Assembly (NCBI GenBank): GCA_028282705.1
Contig: JANQHI010000006.1
Location: 1-64,000 of the forward strand
Source of the DNA: Prolixibacteraceae bacterium
GTDB taxonomy: Bacteria; Bacteroidota; Bacteroidia; Bacteroidales; Prolixibacteraceae
Direction of reading: 5' to 3'
Length of the DNA: 64,000 nucleotides
Below are positions 18,275-27,345 of the stretch, in pieces; within the stretch, counting starts at the first letter, position 1, and every line of letters starts with the position of its first letter. A program made the position numbers and the translations under genes. The notes beneath the pieces are model-generated. The model was not told the origin of the DNA. It searched no databases and saw only the letters and a program-made list of their open reading frames with translations.

Positions 18275-18348
18275 GGGGCTATAGCTCAGTTGGCTAGAGT
18301 GCTTGACTGGCAGTCAAGAGGTCACGGGTTCGACTCCCGTTAGCTCCA
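18275..18348 (+). tRNA. tRNA-Ala (anticodon GGC)
   Basis: GGGGCTATAGCTCAGTTGGCTAGAGTGCTTGACTGGCAGTCAAGAGGTCACGGGTTCGACTCCCGTTAGCTCCA; acceptor GGGGCTA/TAGCTCC pairs, anticodon loop CTGGCAG. Confidence 0.95.
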
Positions 18349-18350
18349 CA
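18335..18350 (+). repeat. att direct repeat (left, within tRNA-Ala 3' end)
   Basis: TCCCGTTAGCTCCACA, identical to 27299-27314. Confidence 0.92.
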
Positions 18351-18383
18351 GTTTTCTTTGATTAACAGTATTTTACAGTGATA

Positions 18384-18404
18384 TTAGCCAACATTTAGCC
18401 AACC
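18384..18404 (+). repeat. Left arm-type repeat pair (putative integrase arm sites)
   Basis: TTAGCCAACATTTAGCCAACC; 19/21 identical to 27140-27160. Confidence 0.7.
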
Positions 18405-18705
18405 ATTTATCAAAAAGCTTCTTTAATCATTTGAATTTTTAGCGGCCTGGGGATCATATAGGACTGGTGTATGAGGTATCAAAAAAATCGGATAAGTTAG
18501 TGACCGCTCCTTTCTTCTTGCGAAGGTGGTATAACTTACCCGAAATCTTAAATGTAAAGTTATAGTATTCAAATGTGATTAACAACATTTGGTTATCAAT
18601 CACTTACTAAATATCCCGGAATATAAATGAGAAAAGCTTTAAATGTAGTAACCTAAATTATATTAAGATGCTGACAAGTTTTATGGATTGTTTATAGAGA
18701 AGATT

Positions 18706-18999
18706 TTATTTAAGTTGTTTTAGAAGGTGTTCCAAGTCCTGACGAGATTGTATCTTATATATATTCCCATTATATTCTATAAAGCCATTTAACTCGAATG
18801 TAGATTCATTTGATTTAGCAAATAATTCCCAAACTTCTACGCCTAATGCTTCTGAAATGTTTTTAAGCGTAGATAAGGTTGGATTACCTTTTGGAGCCAG
18901 AACCCTCGTGAGGGATTCTCTGGCTATTCCCATTTTTTCAGCAAGGTCCTTTAATTTTATATTCTGTTTTTTACATATTTCTTTAACAATTAGAGTCAT
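18706..18999 (-). CDS. XRE-family helix-turn-helix regulator
   Basis: IKLKDLAEKMGIARESLTRVLAPKGNPTLSTLKNISEALGVEVWELF. Confidence 0.88.
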   Translation of the reverse strand: MTLIVKEICKKQNIKLKDLAEKMGIARESLTRVLAPKGNPTLSTLKNISEALGVEVWELFAKSNESTFELNGFIEYNGNIYKIQSRQDLEHLLKQLK

Positions 19000-19002
19000 G
19001 AC

Positions 19003-19140
19003 GTAATATTGTAAGTTATCCTATAAAGATAATAAATTAACAATAAAATCAATTAAATGTAACTCTTAGTATCACTTTCCGGTTAAAAATTTTTGAATTT
19101 ATTGATTTATAATATATCTTTGAGTAACATATAATATCAC
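19003..19140. promoter_or_regulatory. Divergent control region with three 17-bp operator-like motifs
   Basis: GTAACTCTTAGTATCAC (19059-19075), GTAACATATAATATCAC (19124-19140), inverted copy GTAATATTGTAAGTTAT (19003-19019). Confidence 0.55.
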
Positions 19141-19150
19141 ATCGAATAAA

Positions 19151-19315
19151 ATGGATTATAGACAAATTGAAATAGCAAAACAAAATTACATCAGAATAAA
19201 TGGCATTAAATGGTATTTAGAGAAATATCTTGAATACCTAAAAGCAAGTACGTTTTTAACACAAAAAGAGATTTTTGAGAAATACTATTCTGTTAGAAAC
19301 GAATTATATAAATAA
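19151..19315 (+). CDS. Small hypothetical protein (54 aa)
   Basis: ATG..TAA reading MDYRQIEIAKQNYIRINGIKWYLEKYLEYLKASTFLTQKEIFEKYYSVRNELYK; below the length cutoff of the ORF track. Confidence 0.5.
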   Translation: MDYRQIEIAKQNYIRINGIKWYLEKYLEYLKASTFLTQKEIFEKYYSVRNELYK

Positions 19316-19323
19316 TATTCACA

Positions 19324-19542
19324 ATGGATTTTGAACTATTTAAATTCAGAACTACAACATTGGCAAATGAGTCAAAGCAAATAAAAAGAAATTTTGACTT
19401 AGGCTTAATACCAGGTGAGGAAGCACTGGAGAAATTAGATGTAATTGAAGGTAAACTCTTAGTCCTCATTAATGATATTGATAACTGTAATGGTAAGTCA
19501 AAACAAGTGTTTGGCAGAACCTTATCTTTTAGCTCCAATTAG
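19324..19542 (+). CDS. Small hypothetical protein
   Basis: 72 aa ORF 8 nt downstream of the previous small ORF, same strand. Confidence 0.5.
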   Translation: MDFELFKFRTTTLANESKQIKRNFDLGLIPGEEALEKLDVIEGKLLVLINDIDNCNGKSKQVFGRTLSFSSN

Positions 19543-19558
19543 ATTTAACTAGAATATT

Positions 19559-20029
19559 ATGGAAACACAAGAAATTACTTACACAAATCTCCAAGGAGGA
19601 GAGACTAAATTATCAATTTGTGGGAATTCGATAAAAATTGGAATTTCAACGTTGGACTTAGCTTACCTGGATGATCTATTTGACATAGATACCCCTGAAG
19701 CTTTTGCTAATGCAATCGAGGGATTAGTTTTTGGGTGTTCTCAAATAATATCAGAGGCAACACTGGAAGGTATCAATATTTCTGGTATGGTACCAGCGTC
19801 CATGGATTTTCATATTGCAAAACACATGGTCAAAGCGTTAAGAAAAATTGAGTTCAAAGAGCCAAAGTATGGACCTGAAAGCTGCACAATGGATGAACAA
19901 ATTAAAAGCCTAACCAACCAGGTAGAATATTTAAAAGATGTAAACAAAACATATGGAGAATTCATTGACCGTCATTTACCCGGAGCCCCAAATCAAACAC
20001 ACTTAAAAGTTGTCCACCAAGCAAAGTAA
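19559..20029 (+). CDS. Hypothetical protein
   Basis: 156 aa co-directional ORF. Confidence 0.6.
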   Translation: METQEITYTNLQGGETKLSICGNSIKIGISTLDLAYLDDLFDIDTPEAFANAIEGLVFGCSQIISEATLEGINISGMVPASMDFHIAKHMVKALRKIEFKEPKYGPESCTMDEQIKSLTNQVEYLKDVNKTYGEFIDRHLPGAPNQTHLKVVHQAK

Positions 20030-20075
20030 TTTTTGGTTCAAAATATTTTTATTACAAATCATAAAAGCATGAGCT

Positions 20076-20369
20076 ATGGAAAACCCATTTGAAGTTATTT
20101 TAAAAGAAATTAAGCACTTGAATAATAAAGTGGATCAATTAACTAAAAAGATTGAAACACTTCAGAATAAGGGATATTCTGACCCCTATAAGCTTTTAAG
20201 TGCTGAAGATGTCATGAATGAAATGGATTGGAGCCGAATGACTTTACATCGTAGATTATATGAAAGTGATACTAGCCTCCCAATGGTTAAAGATGGGGGT
20301 AAGTTAAAAATCACCAGGGCAAAATTTGATAGATATAAAAGAGAAATCTATGGAGATAATAAGCCTTAG
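20076..20369 (+). CDS. Putative DNA-binding protein (coiled coil plus HTH_17/excisionase-like)
   Basis: LLSAEDVMNEMDWSRMTLHRRLYESDTSLPMVKDGGKLKITRAKFDRYK. Confidence 0.6.
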   Translation: MENPFEVILKEIKHLNNKVDQLTKKIETLQNKGYSDPYKLLSAEDVMNEMDWSRMTLHRRLYESDTSLPMVKDGGKLKITRAKFDRYKREIYGDNKP

Positions 20370-20579
20370 AATCGACCCTAAGAGGCTTTCTGGAGGTGAG
20401 CTTCAAGAAATAAGGAGGATAAAAGGGAAAATTATGAACAAGATAAAGCTATCTGCCAAGGAGGCTAGTTTTTTATCAGCTATGCAACAAAGAAGTAATA
20501 ATTTTTGATGTCAATCCAATTCTGCAACCTGTATAAATTTTTTCCTGAAGTGTTCAGGATCCCATTTTTTAGAGCTCAT

Positions 20580-21170
20580 TTATCCTATTTTTTGTTCGCA
20601 ATCCTTTGGATACATAAGCACACCATTTTGTCTTAAATATTCCTTGGTTTTTTCCTTAGTGTCCTCACTTATTTCTCCCCGACCATTATCAGGCATCATA
20701 ATAATGCCAGGACTATTTTCTTTGTCGTTGCCGCCGGCAATATCATTTAATCTTACCATAATATTTGCCCCTGTCCTAATGGCTACCAAGGCATCACGGT
20801 TGGTGATGTTTTTGTGGGGATTATTTTTAAAGCTATTTTGAATTACAGAGGTACCTATTTGGGTTAGCTGAACCCCATATTTATATACTTCAGCTAGATC
20901 ATTAGCTCTTGCTTCAATTATTTGCTCCTCCGCAGTAAAATCCTCATTGTGGGCATTTTTTGCAATAGCAAACTGGACTATCTGCTGTAACAGCATATCC
21001 CAATCACCGTCTTTGGACCAACGAGAAATTGTAGTATGTGTAATCTTTTTGGAATATTCCCTTTCGATTTCATTAGTGATATCCCTCAAGGAATACTGTC
21101 TTTTACCTTCGCTATCCCTAGATAAGTAAAGGGATTTCGCAAAATCTTTGATTGTTTGACTAGCTGCCAT
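20580..21170 (-). CDS. Terminase small subunit-like HTH protein
   Basis: N-terminal AKSLYLSRDSEGKRQYSLRDITNEIEREYSKKITHTTISRWSKDGDWDMLL resembles the HTH of phage TerS proteins; start trimmed to MAASQ. Confidence 0.5.
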   Translation of the reverse strand: MAASQTIKDFAKSLYLSRDSEGKRQYSLRDITNEIEREYSKKITHTTISRWSKDGDWDMLLQQIVQFAIAKNAHNEDFTAEEQIIEARANDLAEVYKYGVQLTQIGTSVIQNSFKNNPHKNITNRDALVAIRTGANIMVRLNDIAGGNDKENSPGIIMMPDNGRGEISEDTKEKTKEYLRQNGVLMYPKDCEQKIG

Positions 21171-21189
21171 GTTGTTGTAACATTTTAAA

Positions 21190-21450
21190 TTAAGAAGTTT
21201 CAATCTTTGGAACATTCCCTGAAATGATGTCATCAAAAGAGCAAAATTGATAATATCCCTGCTGTAATTCGTTTAGGGTGATCAAGGCTTCTTCTGAGCC
21301 ATGATATAATACTTTAAAAGTAGGCCTCTTTTTTACTGTACCACTTTGATTTGAAAACAAGTTAAATCCAAGTATCTCTCCAGGAACACCTGGCTTAAAG
21401 GAATGATCAGGGTTCACTCCAACTATATAAGCTTTCTTTAAATTTTTCAT
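21190..21450 (-). CDS. Hypothetical protein
   Basis: 86 aa ORF in a tightly packed minus-strand array. Confidence 0.55.
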   Translation of the reverse strand: MKNLKKAYIVGVNPDHSFKPGVPGEILGFNLFSNQSGTVKKRPTFKVLYHGSEEALITLNELQQGYYQFCSFDDIISGNVPKIETS

Positions 21451-21457
21451 TATCCAT

Positions 21458-22156
21458 TTAATTTAATAGTTTAAAAACCTCAGGATTTGGGTGATATCCT
21501 TGTTCATCACAAATAAATAACTCGTCAAATAGAACATTATCTTCTATCTCCCAAAACTGCTGCATTACTTCATTTACGATGCCACAGGCTTTCAAAGCTT
21601 GCTCATAAGCTTTAACTTGCTTTTCATTTTCAAGATTAACAGTGAAATATGATTCTTTGATGATTTTCCAAGATTCGGCCGATACAAAGACTTTTCCCTT
21701 TTCAATAGAAAGATATCTGGCATCTAATGCTTCACCAGGCAAGTTGAGTAAAAAAGGGCTACTATACAAACGCTTTAGCTCATCAGTGGCTTTATTTAAT
21801 AGAGTAAAATCATCATGGTACTTGGGATTATTTATATTCTTCTGCTCTAAGTGGTGAGACTCAGTCAGGTCCATCCTTACAATTTGTCCTGAAGAAACTT
21901 TATTATCTTCCCTCAACTGACCTTTGAGTATATTCTTAACTTTTACTTCAAGTGGCGCTTTGTCAAGGGTTGCCTCATATGCTTTAATGACTTTTGATCC
22001 CCCATTTACCTGGTCAAGTACCAGTTCTTTGGATGGAACTATGCCCAAACTGGTTAGCTCATCAGCAATTTGCTGATATTTTGGAATTAAGAGTTTCCAC
22101 TCACTCTGGCATTTTTCAAATGCCTGTTGGTTGAACGATATTTGTTTTTTCATCAT
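21458..22156 (-). CDS. Hypothetical protein
   Basis: 232 aa ORF in the same array, no recognised motif. Confidence 0.65.
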   Translation of the reverse strand: MMKKQISFNQQAFEKCQSEWKLLIPKYQQIADELTSLGIVPSKELVLDQVNGGSKVIKAYEATLDKAPLEVKVKNILKGQLREDNKVSSGQIVRMDLTESHHLEQKNINNPKYHDDFTLLNKATDELKRLYSSPFLLNLPGEALDARYLSIEKGKVFVSAESWKIIKESYFTVNLENEKQVKAYEQALKACGIVNEVMQQFWEIEDNVLFDELFICDEQGYHPNPEVFKLLN

Positions 22157-22216
22157 GATACAGTTTTAGATTCAGCCCATTTTTCAAGGTCAGATTGGAA
22201 TTCTTCCTGTAACTTT

Positions 22217-22384
22217 TCATCCTCTGAAGCCATCCTTTATTTTTAAATAATCTTCTTCTAAATCATTTACTACTGTATTGATATCGGTATCACTATCTAC
22301 TGTTATACCTTTTAGAAGAATCAAGGGAATGTTTTTTTTCCTTAGTTCATCTGAGATTTGTGTCAATTTTAAATTCGTGCTCAT
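22217..22384 (-). CDS. Small hypothetical protein (55 aa)
   Basis: Minus strand ORF MSTNLKLTQISDELRKKNIPLILLKGITVDSDTDINTVVNDLEEDYLKIKDGFRG; below the ORF-track cutoff. Confidence 0.4.
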   Translation of the reverse strand: MSTNLKLTQISDELRKKNIPLILLKGITVDSDTDINTVVNDLEEDYLKIKDGFRG

Positions 22385-22412
22385 ATCTGTCTAAATTTTT
22401 AGTGGTAATTAT

Positions 22413-22616
22413 TTAATTACAATTCGTTTCCAATAGGTTAATTGTGTCTATCTTTTCATCAATCAAATCACAGATTTTCCGTAATCTAGTTGTATCAAAA
22501 CTTCCTGTTACAATTGTTTTTGATTCTTCAATCAAAGTTTCAATTTCAATGTTCAATTCATATATTTTATCTTGCGTTTCCATTGTACCAAGTGCATTAT
22601 TTCCGCATGCTTTCAC
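22413..22616 (-). CDS. Small hypothetical protein
   Basis: 67 aa ORF whose start overlaps the end of the ATPase gene. Confidence 0.45.
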   Translation of the reverse strand: MKACGNNALGTMETQDKIYELNIEIETLIEESKTIVTGSFDTTRLRKICDLIDEKIDTINLLETNCN

Positions 22617-23214
22617 CCGAAAACTTTATTACTTTACACAGTCGCCTTATTCTGTCCAATGTTCGGACCCCATACCGTTCAAGTACCTGAGAACTATCAA
22701 GGTTTGTTGATACAAAGAGTATTTTTGATTGCGTTTCGGCTAAGTTGAATAGCCTATTAATAGGCTCAAATTTAGATCCGTAGTCGTTGTGGACCGGCTC
22801 ACATCCCATTTCATCAACTGCAATAAACTTCTTGGTTTTTAAGTGTGGAAGTTTAGCTCCTAGTTCTTCAGCAAGCACTGTTTTTACTACCTTTTTTTTG
22901 AAATGGTAGAAGATCAAGGGTATGACATGAAATATGATATCCGTTTTTCCTCTACCTACATCACCAGTTAGAAAAAGCCCCTTGCCTTTTGTGTTTATCA
23001 TCCATTCTACAACTTGTTCATACTCAGGTATCCAAATAAATTCCTCAATAGTTTGATCAACGGAAAGAATTGCATTTTCAAGTATTCTTTTGCATAATCC
23101 AGCATTTCCAAAGCTAAAGGATGGAAATTGCCTTGTATTAAACTCAAAATTGTCTTTTAGTACATTTACAGACTGGCGAAGTGCTATATTTCCTTCAAAA
23201 TCCTGCATTCTCAA
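22597..23214 (-). CDS. DnaC/IstB-like AAA ATPase (putative helicase loader)
   Basis: Walker A GLFLTGDVGRGKTDIIF, Walker B KKFIAVDEMGCEP, sensor-like ILFVSTNL. Confidence 0.75.
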   Translation of the reverse strand: MRMQDFEGNIALRQSVNVLKDNFEFNTRQFPSFSFGNAGLCKRILENAILSVDQTIEEFIWIPEYEQVVEWMINTKGKGLFLTGDVGRGKTDIIFHVIPLIFYHFKKKVVKTVLAEELGAKLPHLKTKKFIAVDEMGCEPVHNDYGSKFEPINRLFNLAETQSKILFVSTNLDSSQVLERYGVRTLDRIRRLCKVIKFSGESMRK

Positions 23215-23872
23215 CTATTTTTTGCTTTTCAGCTTCATCCTTTGGTTTCATAATTTGACCAGTATCATGTGGCTTTTTCTGATTTGAAAATTTAAGTTCA
23301 TTGTCCTTCCATCGCCGTAACCTTTTTTTAGTGTCCCAGGTTCTTTCAAGCTGCCACCTGATTTTAGTATTAGATTTGTTTGGCTCAGACCAGTAATCAT
23401 AAAACTTCTGAACCATTTCATTTCCGTATTCTTCAATGAAAGGGGTTAGTGTTTCATAAAATGCTTTTTGAATTTCTTCAATATCTACTTTAGTATAGTT
23501 CTTTTTTATACCCTTTTTTATTACTTCCTTTTTTTCAGGGATACCTATCCCTATTGGTATACATACCCTACTCAATATTTCTGAGGATACCCTATCCCTT
23601 TTTATATGGATACCTATCCTCTTTTTTCGGGATAGGTTGTTTAGGATTACTGAAGCTCTTTTTTTTGTTATGCCGAAAAATTTCGCAAACCAAGAATTTG
23701 AAGCAATACACTCTTGACCATTCGCTGAAAATGAGATAATTATGCTTAAAAAAGTCTTTTCTGTAAGATTTAAATCTTTCATTTCCCAAACCTCTCTTGG
23801 TATCCAGATACCTTTAAATTCGGCAATATCATCCTTCTCTATTGCCATATTGAAGATTCCATTATTAAACAC
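23195..23872 (-). CDS. Phage-type replication initiation-like HTH protein
   Basis: Winged-helix-like GIWIPREVWEMKDLNLTEKTFLSIIISF..NSWFAKFFGITKKRASVILNNLSRKKRIGI followed by DnaD/O-protein-like C-terminus; overlaps the DnaC-like gene. Confidence 0.65.
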   Translation of the reverse strand: MFNNGIFNMAIEKDDIAEFKGIWIPREVWEMKDLNLTEKTFLSIIISFSANGQECIASNSWFAKFFGITKKRASVILNNLSRKKRIGIHIKRDRVSSEILSRVCIPIGIGIPEKKEVIKKGIKKNYTKVDIEEIQKAFYETLTPFIEEYGNEMVQKFYDYWSEPNKSNTKIRWQLERTWDTKKRLRRWKDNELKFSNQKKPHDTGQIMKPKDEAEKQKIVENAGF

Positions 23873-24164
23873 TCAAAGGTTGGATTGCAGCCTCAACCTC
23901 ACTACGTTTATAATAAACCCTATTGCCCAAACCGTATGCTTTGAGTTTGCCTCTCTTGGTCCAGTTGTGGACAGTTGAAAGGTCAACATTGAGCAGGTTT
24001 TTTACTTCATTCCTGGTCATAAAGGTTTCAGGCTCTTTGGGCTGAAATTCCTGTTTAAGCTGCTTTATTTCTGCCTTCACGCCTGAAAGAATAGCATCTT
24101 GCAATTGTTCAGGGGTAATCTGGATGAATTGCACAGCCCTTTGAGGTAATTTATCATTTTGCAT
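23865..24164 (-). CDS. HTH_17/excisionase-family DNA-binding protein
   Basis: FMTRNEVKNLLNVDLSTVHNWTKRGKLKAYGLGNRVYYKRSEVEAAI. Confidence 0.85.
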   Translation of the reverse strand: MQNDKLPQRAVQFIQITPEQLQDAILSGVKAEIKQLKQEFQPKEPETFMTRNEVKNLLNVDLSTVHNWTKRGKLKAYGLGNRVYYKRSEVEAAIQPLSV

Positions 24165-24251
24165 TTTAAATACATTTAATATTTAAATGCAAGATCGGGA
24201 GGTATGCGTCTTAAAATTCAGACAGAATAGGAGTTTTGTTACGACAAACTA

Positions 24252-25061
24252 TTAATTGGTGGAATTAGGGTTAAGTACATCTTTTTTTATTCTTTGGTAC
24301 CTATTAAGCCTTTCATTTGTTTTACACACATCATATGTTTTTATTTCAGTGGGGGATTCAAGATCAGAAAAATTATTTTCAAACCAGGTTTTATAATTTC
24401 CTGGTTTAATATGGTCATATATAAAACCATCTTGTTCAAAAGACATTACACGATATATGAAACTATATTCTCGAATATATTTTTTATCATCTGACTCTTT
24501 AATAAAATTTATGAAAATCCTAAAATAATCTTCCTTCTTGAAAATTTCAGGGTGCCAGTTTTTATCTGTTTCTCTTTCTTTATTGTTTGACAATGCAAAC
24601 TCAACTTGAACACTACTTATTACTTCATTATTTTTATGAAAATGAAAATCAAGGGTTGAATCAGTGTAAGAATTGATATTTCGCATTACAATATTAGTAA
24701 AATCAAGATTTTTATAAATGGAACAATTTTCTGAGACTTCCATTATTAAACCATTAAGGGTAAGTTTGCAATTATTGACATAATTGAAATCAGTTTCGTT
24801 ATCAAATGCAGATATACCTTTAGAGACAAGGCCTAAATTATAATCTTTTCCATCATTGAATAATCGATTAAATACTGTATTCAGAAAACCACTTCTGCTG
24901 GTATTATTATGCAGTTGATACAATTCATCAATAACACTATTTGTAGCTTCAGATTCCAGTCTGCACCAATCAATTGAGTCTCCATTCCGAACTTTTTTAT
25001 CATCATACATTCCATTTAAAATATTGATGAGATCAAGATATGTATAATTAGATTTTCCCAT
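24252..25061 (-). CDS. Hypothetical protein (cargo candidate)
   Basis: 269 aa ORF between the TA pair and the excisionase-like gene; no recognised motif. Confidence 0.65.
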   Translation of the reverse strand: MGKSNYTYLDLINILNGMYDDKKVRNGDSIDWCRLESEATNSVIDELYQLHNNTSRSGFLNTVFNRLFNDGKDYNLGLVSKGISAFDNETDFNYVNNCKLTLNGLIMEVSENCSIYKNLDFTNIVMRNINSYTDSTLDFHFHKNNEVISSVQVEFALSNNKERETDKNWHPEIFKKEDYFRIFINFIKESDDKKYIREYSFIYRVMSFEQDGFIYDHIKPGNYKTWFENNFSDLESPTEIKTYDVCKTNERLNRYQRIKKDVLNPNSTN

Positions 25062-25110
25062 TAAATATCTTCAGTACTAGAATTCATATTGGGTTGTTAG
25101 TGAATTGATT

Positions 25111-25413
25111 TTAAATTGGTTGTAGGTCAAAATTAACTTTTGCTCCCAATGCTGCCGCAATTTTATTAATAGTTGCAAGGGTTAGGTTGAATTTACCGTT
25201 TTCAATCTTTGATATCTGACCCTTTTCCATGCCCAATTTTTCAGCCAGTTGGCTTTGAGTTAAATGCTTCTTTTTCCGTAATTCCTTAAACTTGAAAGCA
25301 AGTATATCAGCCTTTAATTCATTTTCAAATTTGATTCTTGCTTCTGTCCCTTTCTCCCCAATAAATCGGTCAAGTACCTCATTATGCGATATTGTTTTCA
25401 TTCCCTTTTTCAT
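25111..25413 (-). CDS. XRE-family antitoxin (HigA-like)
   Basis: FKELRKKKHLTQSQLAEKLGMEKGQISKIENGKFNLTLATINKIAAALGAKVNF; 4-nt overlap with the toxin gene. Confidence 0.88.
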   Translation of the reverse strand: MKKGMKTISHNEVLDRFIGEKGTEARIKFENELKADILAFKFKELRKKKHLTQSQLAEKLGMEKGQISKIENGKFNLTLATINKIAAALGAKVNFDLQPI

Positions 25414-25736
25414 AGCCCTAAATATTTTTTTCTTAACTGCTCTGCTTTATCAATCTCTCTTTTAGGTGTCTTCTGTGTTTTCTTTGTAATTCCATGGGTG
25501 CAAATTACCAAAGTGTTTTGCTGCTTATCCCAAAAGGCAAATAAACGATACTCATTGCTATTATATTCTGCCCGAAACTCCCAAATGTTACTGCTCTTTA
25601 ATTTCTTGAATATCCGTGGGTCATTTATTTCTTGTGATTTGGAAATATTGAAGAATAATTTTTCAGCTGCTTTTAGTTCAATACTTTCCAAGAACTCAAT
25701 TGCGCTAGGCAAATATTTTACATTAAATCGTTTCAC
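25410..25736 (-). CDS. RelE/HigB-family toxin
   Basis: IFKKLKSSNIWEFRAEYNSNEYRLFAFWDKQQNTLVICTHGITKKTQKTPKREIDKAE. Confidence 0.88.
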   Translation of the reverse strand: MKRFNVKYLPSAIEFLESIELKAAEKLFFNISKSQEINDPRIFKKLKSSNIWEFRAEYNSNEYRLFAFWDKQQNTLVICTHGITKKTQKTPKREIDKAEQLRKKYLGL

Positions 25737-25795
25737 TATACAAAGATATTAAAAGTTGAATTATATTGCAACATGGAAGTTAAATAATTATCCTG

Positions 25796-27094
25796 CTAGT
25801 TTGCCTTTTTAATAACTGCCATGGGGGTTTTATCATTGGCTCTTAGTTGATGCTTACTCCAGTATTCAGCTATTTGCAATGCAAAATCATTTGTGGTTTT
25901 ACCAATGTATTCTAAAAATTGTTGTTCTGTACTGTGAGCTGTAATACTCATCAAAAGTGCTGTTGGTATCTCTCCATAAAAATTACTGGCAAAGGATCTG
26001 CGGCACACATGGGAGGTAATTAATTCATACTTTGGATATATCCCTTGTATTTTCCGCCCAATTTCCTTATCCATTTTGGCTCCATCTGTCGGTTCATTTA
26101 TTTCAGCAATTTTACAAAGGTCCTTCAGGTGTTTATTGAATTTTTGTGCTGATAGTTGGGTTGGGAATTGCCCGTTATGTTTATCCAATATTCCCTTTAT
26201 TTTGGGGTGTATGGGAATGGCAACCCTTTTCCCTGTCTTTTTTTGGGTGAACTCAATCAATTCTATCCCGTTTCTTACTTTAATGATGTTGCATGTGAAA
26301 GCTAGCAAGTCGGAAACCCTTTGTCCAGTATAACATCCTATAATCAACCAATCTTTTGCATTCTCAAGAGCTGTCCTTTTATAAATTGTTGTCTCTATTT
26401 TGGATAGTTCATCAAAGGTCAAAAATACTTTAGAAGCTTTTTCAGTAAAACCTTTGATTTGCTTTAGCTGCTTGCTTACTTCATACCCATTTAATTGCGC
26501 ATCAAGACATATTGTTTTTAAAAATCGGATATACCTGCCTGCAGAGTTAGGGTTCAACTTATCTCTTTCAATGAGGTATTTTAAAAAATCATTCCTGAAT
26601 TTTAAATCTACATTTTTAACATAGAAGTGTTTTTTCTTATGTTTCTGATAAGCTCCAATTTTGTTTTTAAGTGTGGTATATTTTTGAATAGTTCCAATTG
26701 CAACACCTCTTTTACCGTTTGGGAATTCTTTATATGGTAAATTGTCAATATAAAGCTGAACGTAGTTGGTAAGTAAGTCTTTATCCGTTTTGTCCTGCTT
26801 GCCAGTGATAGAATTTATTTGTTCATGCAACCAATTACCAGATATTTCAATTCCATTTGTAGTAGCTGAATTACAGCGTTTTTCTATTTCCGTTTTTAGA
26901 TTGCTTAAATCTGTTTTTAAGTTTTTCAGGTTTGTATCTTTGGGTATGGGGAGGTTTGTTTTTCTACTCCAGTTTTTAGGATCAATAATATACCCTGTTT
27001 TTCTTTTAAATACATTTTTACGGCTTATTGATAAGCGGACATAGATATTGGCCGGGTTATTTTGACTCTGTAGCAGGTAACTTATGGTGGCCAT
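25796..27094 (-). CDS. Tyrosine-type site-specific integrase
   Basis: Arm-DNA-binding N-terminus, SAM-like domain, catalytic GCYTGQRVSDLLAFTC, TSHVCRRSFASNFY, TAHSTEQQFLEYIG. Confidence 0.95.
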   Translation of the reverse strand: MATISYLLQSQNNPANIYVRLSISRKNVFKRKTGYIIDPKNWSRKTNLPIPKDTNLKNLKTDLSNLKTEIEKRCNSATTNGIEISGNWLHEQINSITGKQDKTDKDLLTNYVQLYIDNLPYKEFPNGKRGVAIGTIQKYTTLKNKIGAYQKHKKKHFYVKNVDLKFRNDFLKYLIERDKLNPNSAGRYIRFLKTICLDAQLNGYEVSKQLKQIKGFTEKASKVFLTFDELSKIETTIYKRTALENAKDWLIIGCYTGQRVSDLLAFTCNIIKVRNGIELIEFTQKKTGKRVAIPIHPKIKGILDKHNGQFPTQLSAQKFNKHLKDLCKIAEINEPTDGAKMDKEIGRKIQGIYPKYELITSHVCRRSFASNFYGEIPTALLMSITAHSTEQQFLEYIGKTTNDFALQIAEYWSKHQLRANDKTPMAVIKKAN

Positions 27095-27139
27095 TATTGC
27101 TATAAACTTTAGTGATTTGAACAGGTGTAAATATACAAA

Positions 27140-27160
27140 TTAGTCAACATTTAGTCAACC
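27140..27160 (+). repeat. Right arm-type repeat pair (putative integrase arm sites)
   Basis: TTAGTCAACATTTAGTCAACC; 19/21 identical to 18384-18404. Confidence 0.7.
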
Positions 27161-27298
27161 AAATTACAATTTATTTCAATTTGATTAAATCCTATTCAAT
27201 TATAACCTTTCCTGTATATCTTTATATATAAGAGATTATAAGGGCTATGCTTAGTTTTTTGCAATGTTTTAGGAGCCTGTGAAATTTATAGTTTCTGT

Positions 27299-27314
27299 TC
27301 CCGTTAGCTCCACA
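27299..27314 (+). repeat. att direct repeat (right)
   Basis: TCCCGTTAGCTCCACA, identical to the tRNA-Ala 3' end. Confidence 0.92.
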
Positions 27315-27345
27315 AAAGCTACAACTGGAAAGTTGTAGCTTTTTT
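27314..27345 (+). terminator. Rho-independent terminator, probably the original tRNA-Ala terminator
   Basis: AAAAGCTACAACT-GGAA-AGTTGTAGCTTTT perfect 13-bp stem with T tract, directly after the att repeat. Confidence 0.85.

Follow-up and report, generated by a model that had tools for sequence, protein, structure and literature searches.

What occupies the approximately 9 kb that follow a tRNA-Ala gene in contig JANQHI010000006.1 of a Prolixibacteraceae bacterium (Bacteroidales; assembly GCA_028282705.1)? The stretch analysed, here called the window, comprises 64 kb from a host genome of 4.29 Mb in 85 contigs, and an initial annotation had proposed that it contains a satellite resembling the phage-inducible chromosomal islands (PICIs). 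We find a mobile element of about 8.96 kb (18351-27314) in the 3' end of tRNA-Ala(GGC) between exact 16-bp repeats, and consider it likely to be an integrated phage satellite, PICI-like in operation as predicted from its anatomy. This reading is supported by the attachment (att) repeat together with putative integrase arm sites, a displaced terminator and a satellite gene set that includes no structural or conjugation genes, and further by a relative of its terminase small subunit (TerS)-like protein beside a phage large terminase subunit (TerL) and by a sister element in another genus.

Insertion of the element into tRNA-Ala

The features that define the integration site are the following.

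18275..18349, plus strand: tRNA-Ala (GGC), integration target (ARAGORN; Rfam RF00005, 69.1 bits)
18335..18350, plus strand: attL core TCCCGTTAGCTCCACA, equal to the tRNA 3' end (exact 16-bp repeat)
18384..18404, plus strand: left pair of putative arm-type integrase sites TTAGCCAACATTTAGCCAACC (from the repeat pattern)
27140..27160, plus strand: right pair of putative arm-type integrase sites (from the repeat pattern)
27299..27314, plus strand: attR core TCCCGTTAGCTCCACA (exact 16-bp repeat)
27314..27345, plus strand: displaced terminator hairpin of tRNA-Ala (13-bp stem, -16.6 kcal/mol)

The exact 16-bp repeats that had been annotated at both ends of an approximately 9-kb element in tRNA-Ala were confirmed, and beyond these two copies no other occurrence of TCCCGTTAGCTCCACA was detected in the window even when up to 2 mismatches were allowed. 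Dinucleotide-shuffled sequences contained 0.01 matches on average and in no case two. A 21-bp double repeat, TTAGYCAACATTTAGYCAACC, is found just inside each end of the element; with up to 3 mismatches allowed, it has no further copy in the window (shuffle expectation 0.01), and these pairs at both inner ends, being located where such sites are expected, would be the arm-type sites of the integrase.

A hairpin with a T-run follows directly after the right att copy and no such hairpin follows tRNA-Ala itself. In two Prolixibacter genomes a related TonB gene precedes tRNA-Ala(GGC), the tRNA runs straight into its terminator and no integrase follows. From this comparison it is evident that the element now separates the tRNA from its original terminator by 9 kb, and this displacement is an independent proof of insertion. 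Within the genus of the host, synteny at the integration site, judged from the right-flank neighbourhood, is not conserved, so that the evidence for an uninterrupted site depends on the TonB/tRNA-Ala arrangement of Prolixibacter. The GC content of the element is 33.0%, compared with 35.9% in the rest of the window, and 87% of the element is coding according to the gene model used in the analysis.

Gene content of the element

Between the att sites the following open reading frames (ORFs) were recognised.

18706..18999, minus strand: XRE/Cro-CI-type repressor, 97 aa (PF01381, E=1e-10; phage repressor PHROGs)
19151..19315, plus strand: small ORF, 54 aa (no PHROG match)
19324..19542, plus strand: small ORF, 72 aa (no PHROG match)
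19559..20029, plus strand: protein with no assigned family, 156 aa (no significant family)
20076..20369, plus strand: coiled-coil and helix-turn-helix (HTH) protein, AlpA/excisionase-like candidate, 97 aa (weak: phrog_7338, 9.5e-4; phrog_66, 0.07)
20326..20508, plus strand: small ORF overlapping the HTH gene, 60 aa, weak candidate (no PHROG match)
20580..21170, minus strand: TerS-like protein, 196 aa, ATG start (full-length relative overlapping a phage TerL)
21190..21450, minus strand: ORF, 86 aa (no family match)
21458..22156, minus strand: u232 (weak blastp E values of 0.002 and 0.04 against ORFs of the sister element)
22217..22384, minus strand: ORF, 55 aa (relative of a 71-aa protein of the sister element, 34-37% identity, E ~1e-5 within the sister)
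22413..22616, minus strand: ORF, 67 aa (no PHROG match)
22597..23214, minus strand: DnaC-like helicase loader, 205 aa (phrog_3277, E=4.5e-19)
23195..23872, minus strand: replication initiation protein (Rep) with winged HTH N-terminus (PF13730, 1.7e-6; phrog_270, replication initiation, 1.4e-8; phrog_19415, 1.5e-22)
23865..24164, minus strand: excisionase/AlpA/MerR-like HTH protein, 99 aa (HTH_17, 1.2e-12; phrog_66, excisionase, 1.3e-10; TIGR01764 above cutoff)
24252..25061, minus strand: u269 (N-terminal 140 aa conserved in the sister element, where the gene lies at the corresponding place)
25111..25413, minus strand: XRE antitoxin-like protein, 100 aa (HipB/HigA-type NCBIfam matches below cutoff)
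25410..25736, minus strand: Gp49/RelE-HigB-type toxin, 108 aa (PF05973, 8e-17, above cutoff)
25796..27094, minus strand: tyrosine integrase, 432 aa (PF00589, 2.9e-7; PF13102, 1.4e-8; both above cutoff)

On the minus strand, reading from attR to attL, the integrase is followed by the toxin and antitoxin genes, u269, the HTH_17/AlpA-like gene, Rep, the DnaC-like loader, two small ORFs, u232, the 86-aa ORF and the gene for the TerS-like protein. A plus-strand operon of small ORFs, which includes the second HTH candidate, converges on these genes and is divergent from the XRE repressor. The tyrosine integrase and the XRE repressor opposite a short-ORF operon, both proposed initially, were borne out by the profile matches. 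Where one excisionase-like HTH protein had been proposed, the protein at 23865-24164 fits that description well, but 20076-20369 encodes a second, weak candidate. Rep-like and DnaC-like functions were indeed found in 22597-23872, but they are encoded by two overlapping genes (23195-23872 and 22597-23214). The pair at 25111-25736, a Gp49-type toxin with an XRE antitoxin, is an addition to the earlier gene list.

When the ORFs of the element were compared with Pfam, PHROGs, NCBIfam and PADLOC (some short ORFs in fewer of these libraries), no structural, lysis, relaxase or type IV secretion system (T4SS) family was matched, in agreement with the initial statement that capsid, portal, large terminase, tail, relaxase and T4SS genes are lacking. 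The TerL, portal, capsid and tail genes that would mark a temperate prophage between the att sites were thus not detected among the ORFs scanned, nor was a relaxase or conjugation gene that would mark a mobilisable or conjugative element. A repeat scan of the element revealed no clear iteron array.

A probable terminase small subunit

The ORF at 20580-21170, whose most likely start is the ATG at 21170, had been described as TerS-like, and this description was upheld by a homologue that lies in the TerS position of a phage beside TerL. Searches with the protein against PDB sequences and a phage collection gave no match, and a TerS profile run against 396 genomes of the phylum found only the protein itself; a survey of 393 Bacteroidales genomes revealed a single TerS-like relative, in genome G190 (HMMER E=3e-15 per genome). 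The similarity spans nearly the whole protein and extends beyond the HTH. The gene for this relative overlaps the beginning of a gene for a Terminase_3 large subunit (PF04466, 1.2e-35), after which come Portal_Mu, Mu F, a ClpP-type protease, a DUF2586 protein and a TMP_3 tape measure; this is the position at which a tailed phage has its TerS. By homology and by the position of its homologue, 20580-21170 probably encodes a TerS.

The relative is located on G190:C62, a contig of 36.6 kb from a Mu-headed Bacteroidales phage, whose DnaC is 45% identical to that of the element. As relatives of both DnaC and the TerS-like protein are carried there, the element shares loader and packaging protein with one phage lineage. 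A Mu-headed phage of the G190:C62 type is a possible type of helper.

These data also bear on whether the element might be an integrative mobilisable element, or another island moved by conjugative helpers or generalised transduction, in which the TerS-like protein would be a DNA-binding regulator. Bacteroidota are known for integrative mobilisable elements such as NBU1 (PMC11389934), several ORFs of the element have no assigned function and the similarity to TerS is low. However, no match to relaxase, MobA/B, coupling or T4SS proteins was obtained among the ORFs scanned with Pfam and NCBIfam, Rep, the DnaC loader and TerS are phage-type genes, and the TerS relative is full-length and in TerS position, so that we regard this explanation as quite unlikely. 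With a phage homologue of the TerS-like protein next to TerL and no mobilisation gene appearing, the satellite reading of the initial annotation was sustained.

A sister element in Prolixibacter denitrificans

A search with DnaC led to a sister element of 14.3 kb in Prolixibacter denitrificans DSM 27267, a family-level relative of the host (G008; NZ_PYGC01000001, C1 ~218825-233137), where a 48-bp segment of tRNA-Lys is present in two copies separated by 14.3 kb. Its genes are arranged in the order integrase, u269 homologue (45%), HTH, Rep, DnaC (51%) and two unknowns, followed by a 1090-aa tape-measure protein (PF20155, 2.6e-28), an unknown, a relative of the 55-aa ORF, a minor-head/head-morphogenesis protein (phrog_7625, 6e-46), an unknown, a TerS (phrog_309, 4.8e-50) and small ORFs. 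The sister element has no recognisable gene for a large terminase, portal or major capsid, and no Gp49-type toxin-antitoxin pair was found in it. Both elements thus have the int-u269-HTH-Rep-DnaC front end and the 55/71-aa protein, and both carry a TerS in the absence of TerL, portal and capsid genes. Unlike the window element, the sister is 14.3 kb long, uses tRNA-Lys with a 48-bp att, has a TerS of another family (phrog_309) and encodes tape-measure and minor-head proteins. As judged from these similarities, the satellite reading is strengthened by a sister whose TerS is unambiguous and whose front-end genes have the same order. Paired TGATTTCRC-type repeats were seen by eye at both inner ends of the sister.

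The N-terminal part of u269 is 45-46% identical to its homologue in the sister (E ~1e-38), and in a scan of 85,462 species the sister element was the only relative. This protein of no known family, common only to the two satellites and in the same position, is a possible signature of the lineage. For u232, homology with ORFs in the corresponding part of the sister is suggestive only; among 393 Bacteroidales genomes it found only itself, it had no match in the phage collection, and its AlphaFold model was poor (pLDDT 40).

The sister also helps to weigh whether the window element descends from a full temperate prophage by deletion of structural and lysis genes, with integrase, replication genes and TerS retained. 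Such an origin would account for Rep and DnaC being 40-45% identical to those of apparent full phages and prophages of the order, and for the phage counterpart of TerS. On the other hand, none of the main ORFs is interrupted, the coding fraction is 87%, both ends retain intact att and arm sites, and not even a fragment of a TerL, portal, capsid or tail gene remains. Moreover, the sister, in another genus and another tRNA, has the same capsid-less plan, and its tape-measure gene precedes the head and TerS genes, opposite to the normal phage order, which argues against simple prophage decay. We consider a prophage remnant unlikely.

Replication relatives and search for a helper

The DnaC-like loader is 51% identical to that of the sister element and 45% identical to those of two phage/prophage loci, and Rep gave tblastn matches in Bacteroidota phages. 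At G120:C13, a locus next to tRNA-Pro that reads as a full prophage (structural genes recognised by eye), DnaC and Rep are 45% and 40% identical, respectively, to those of the element; judged by these identities, the replication module is common to the element and to apparent full prophages. Other DnaC relatives (~30-39%) were rejected, as those inspected resembled phage/prophage or other loci with only integrase/HTH-type and short weak matches to other genes of the element. A DnaC query against IMG/VR returned nothing.

Several results weigh against a satellite. The TerS-like protein is matched by no Pfam, PHROG or NCBIfam model, its identity to the G190 phage relative is only 23-25% (BLASTP 8e-19, single comparison), PHROGs do not recognise that relative as TerS either, and a poor AlphaFold model (pLDDT 46) made a fold check impossible; given the low identity and the failed model, TerS is a probable assignment, short of proven. 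The sister was recognised mainly through DnaC and u269, and no gene for capsid-size redirection or phage interference is recognisable in the window element. In addition, no resident helper was found, as the TerL models PF04466, PF03237 and PF03354 were above cutoff nowhere in the host genome, and a helper would therefore be an infecting phage or carry a divergent terminase. At G000:C79:32657-33052, a sub-threshold TerL_ATPase-like stretch (E 0.06) with three internal stop codons was noticed, perhaps a chance match or a prophage relic.

The lack of a helper prophage detectable with these three models, together with the single copy known, might also suggest that the satellite is dead or domesticated, for instance retained as an anti-phage island because of its toxin-antitoxin pair. 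Satellites can, however, do without a resident helper (PMC11389934), the main ORFs are intact and both att sites and the paired arm sites are exact, so that this appears highly improbable.

Comparison with known satellites and proposed mode of action

PICIs of Firmicutes and Proteobacteria resemble the element in their tRNA/att site, an integrase at one end, AlpA/Stl-type regulators, a replication module of their own, a TerS in some cases, the absence of structural genes and a size of about 9 kb. The element likewise combines a specific att site and cognate integrase with a regulator module (XRE repressor and HTH_17/AlpA-like protein), a replication module and, by homology and the homologue's position, a TerS, in the absence of capsid, portal, TerL and tail genes; it differs from PICIs in having a DnaC loader instead of the Pri-Rep type. 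In general profile libraries its proteins matched no PICI-specific family beyond generic integrase, HTH and Rep domains. Of the PICI-like satellite first proposed, the mode of operation is thus a fair prediction from anatomy, but we do not claim that the element belongs to the PICI family, as no family identifying a PICI was matched.

Capsid-forming PICIs (cf-PICIs) encode capsid, portal, protease and both terminase subunits (PMC10690885) and, like the element, are integrated satellites with a packaging gene, but the element has no head gene and no TerL. The PICI-like elements (PLEs) of Vibrio cholerae use their own tape measure to form chimeric tails with helper parts (PMC12987554). The sister element, which also encodes a tape-measure protein, is likened to them by analogy only; its tape measure, shorter at 1090 aa than the relative in Bacteroides phage p00 (gene of 4365 bp, ~1454 aa), might by this analogy make chimeric tails. 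The window element, unlike PLEs, has no tape-measure gene. With the phage-inducible chromosomal minimalist islands (PICMIs) of Vibrionaceae (PMC10803314) it shares small size, reduced gene content and the lack of a capsid-remodelling gene, whereas phylum and genes differ.

In the proposed mode of action, the CI-type repressor would keep the element silent. Upon infection by a helper, derepression and the AlpA/excisionase-like HTH proteins would allow the tyrosine integrase to excise the element at the 16-bp att sites, and Rep and the DnaC-like loader are predicted from homology to replicate it autonomously. Its own TerS would then recognise a packaging site on satellite DNA and recruit the TerL of the helper, and the DNA would be loaded into heads and tails made wholly by a tailed phage whose head genes are most plausibly of the Mu type. 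The Gp49-type toxin-antitoxin pair may stabilise the element or interfere with phages.

Both elements might represent a satellite lineage that is indigenous to Bacteroidales and has a modular packaging end, in which the window member would hijack a helper by TerS alone and the Prolixibacter sister would substitute its own TerS, minor head protein and (shorter) tape measure for those of the helper, giving chimeric particles; to this we assign about an even chance. If true, satellites arose or spread in a phylum where none were found described. PICIs are known from Gram-positive cocci and Gammaproteobacteria (PMC6092414), a survey in which the word stem Bacteroid- occurs 0 times, and one review adds Cyanobacteria and Actinobacteria as satellite hosts. 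Among the PMC papers searched, no title or abstract describes a satellite in Bacteroidota, Bacteroidetes, Bacteroidales or Flavobacteria, and earlier reports may exist. Satellites shape phage defence and gene transfer, and a Bacteroidales candidate with a sister in a cultured, named strain makes the existence of satellites proper to this dominant gut, soil and marine phylum directly testable, with u269, the DnaC type and TerS as search seeds for further members.

Among the database matches, OQ791282.1, named Shigella phage Henu10, gave the same match coordinates and score as Riemerella phage vB_RanS_PT15, and its host label may be wrong.

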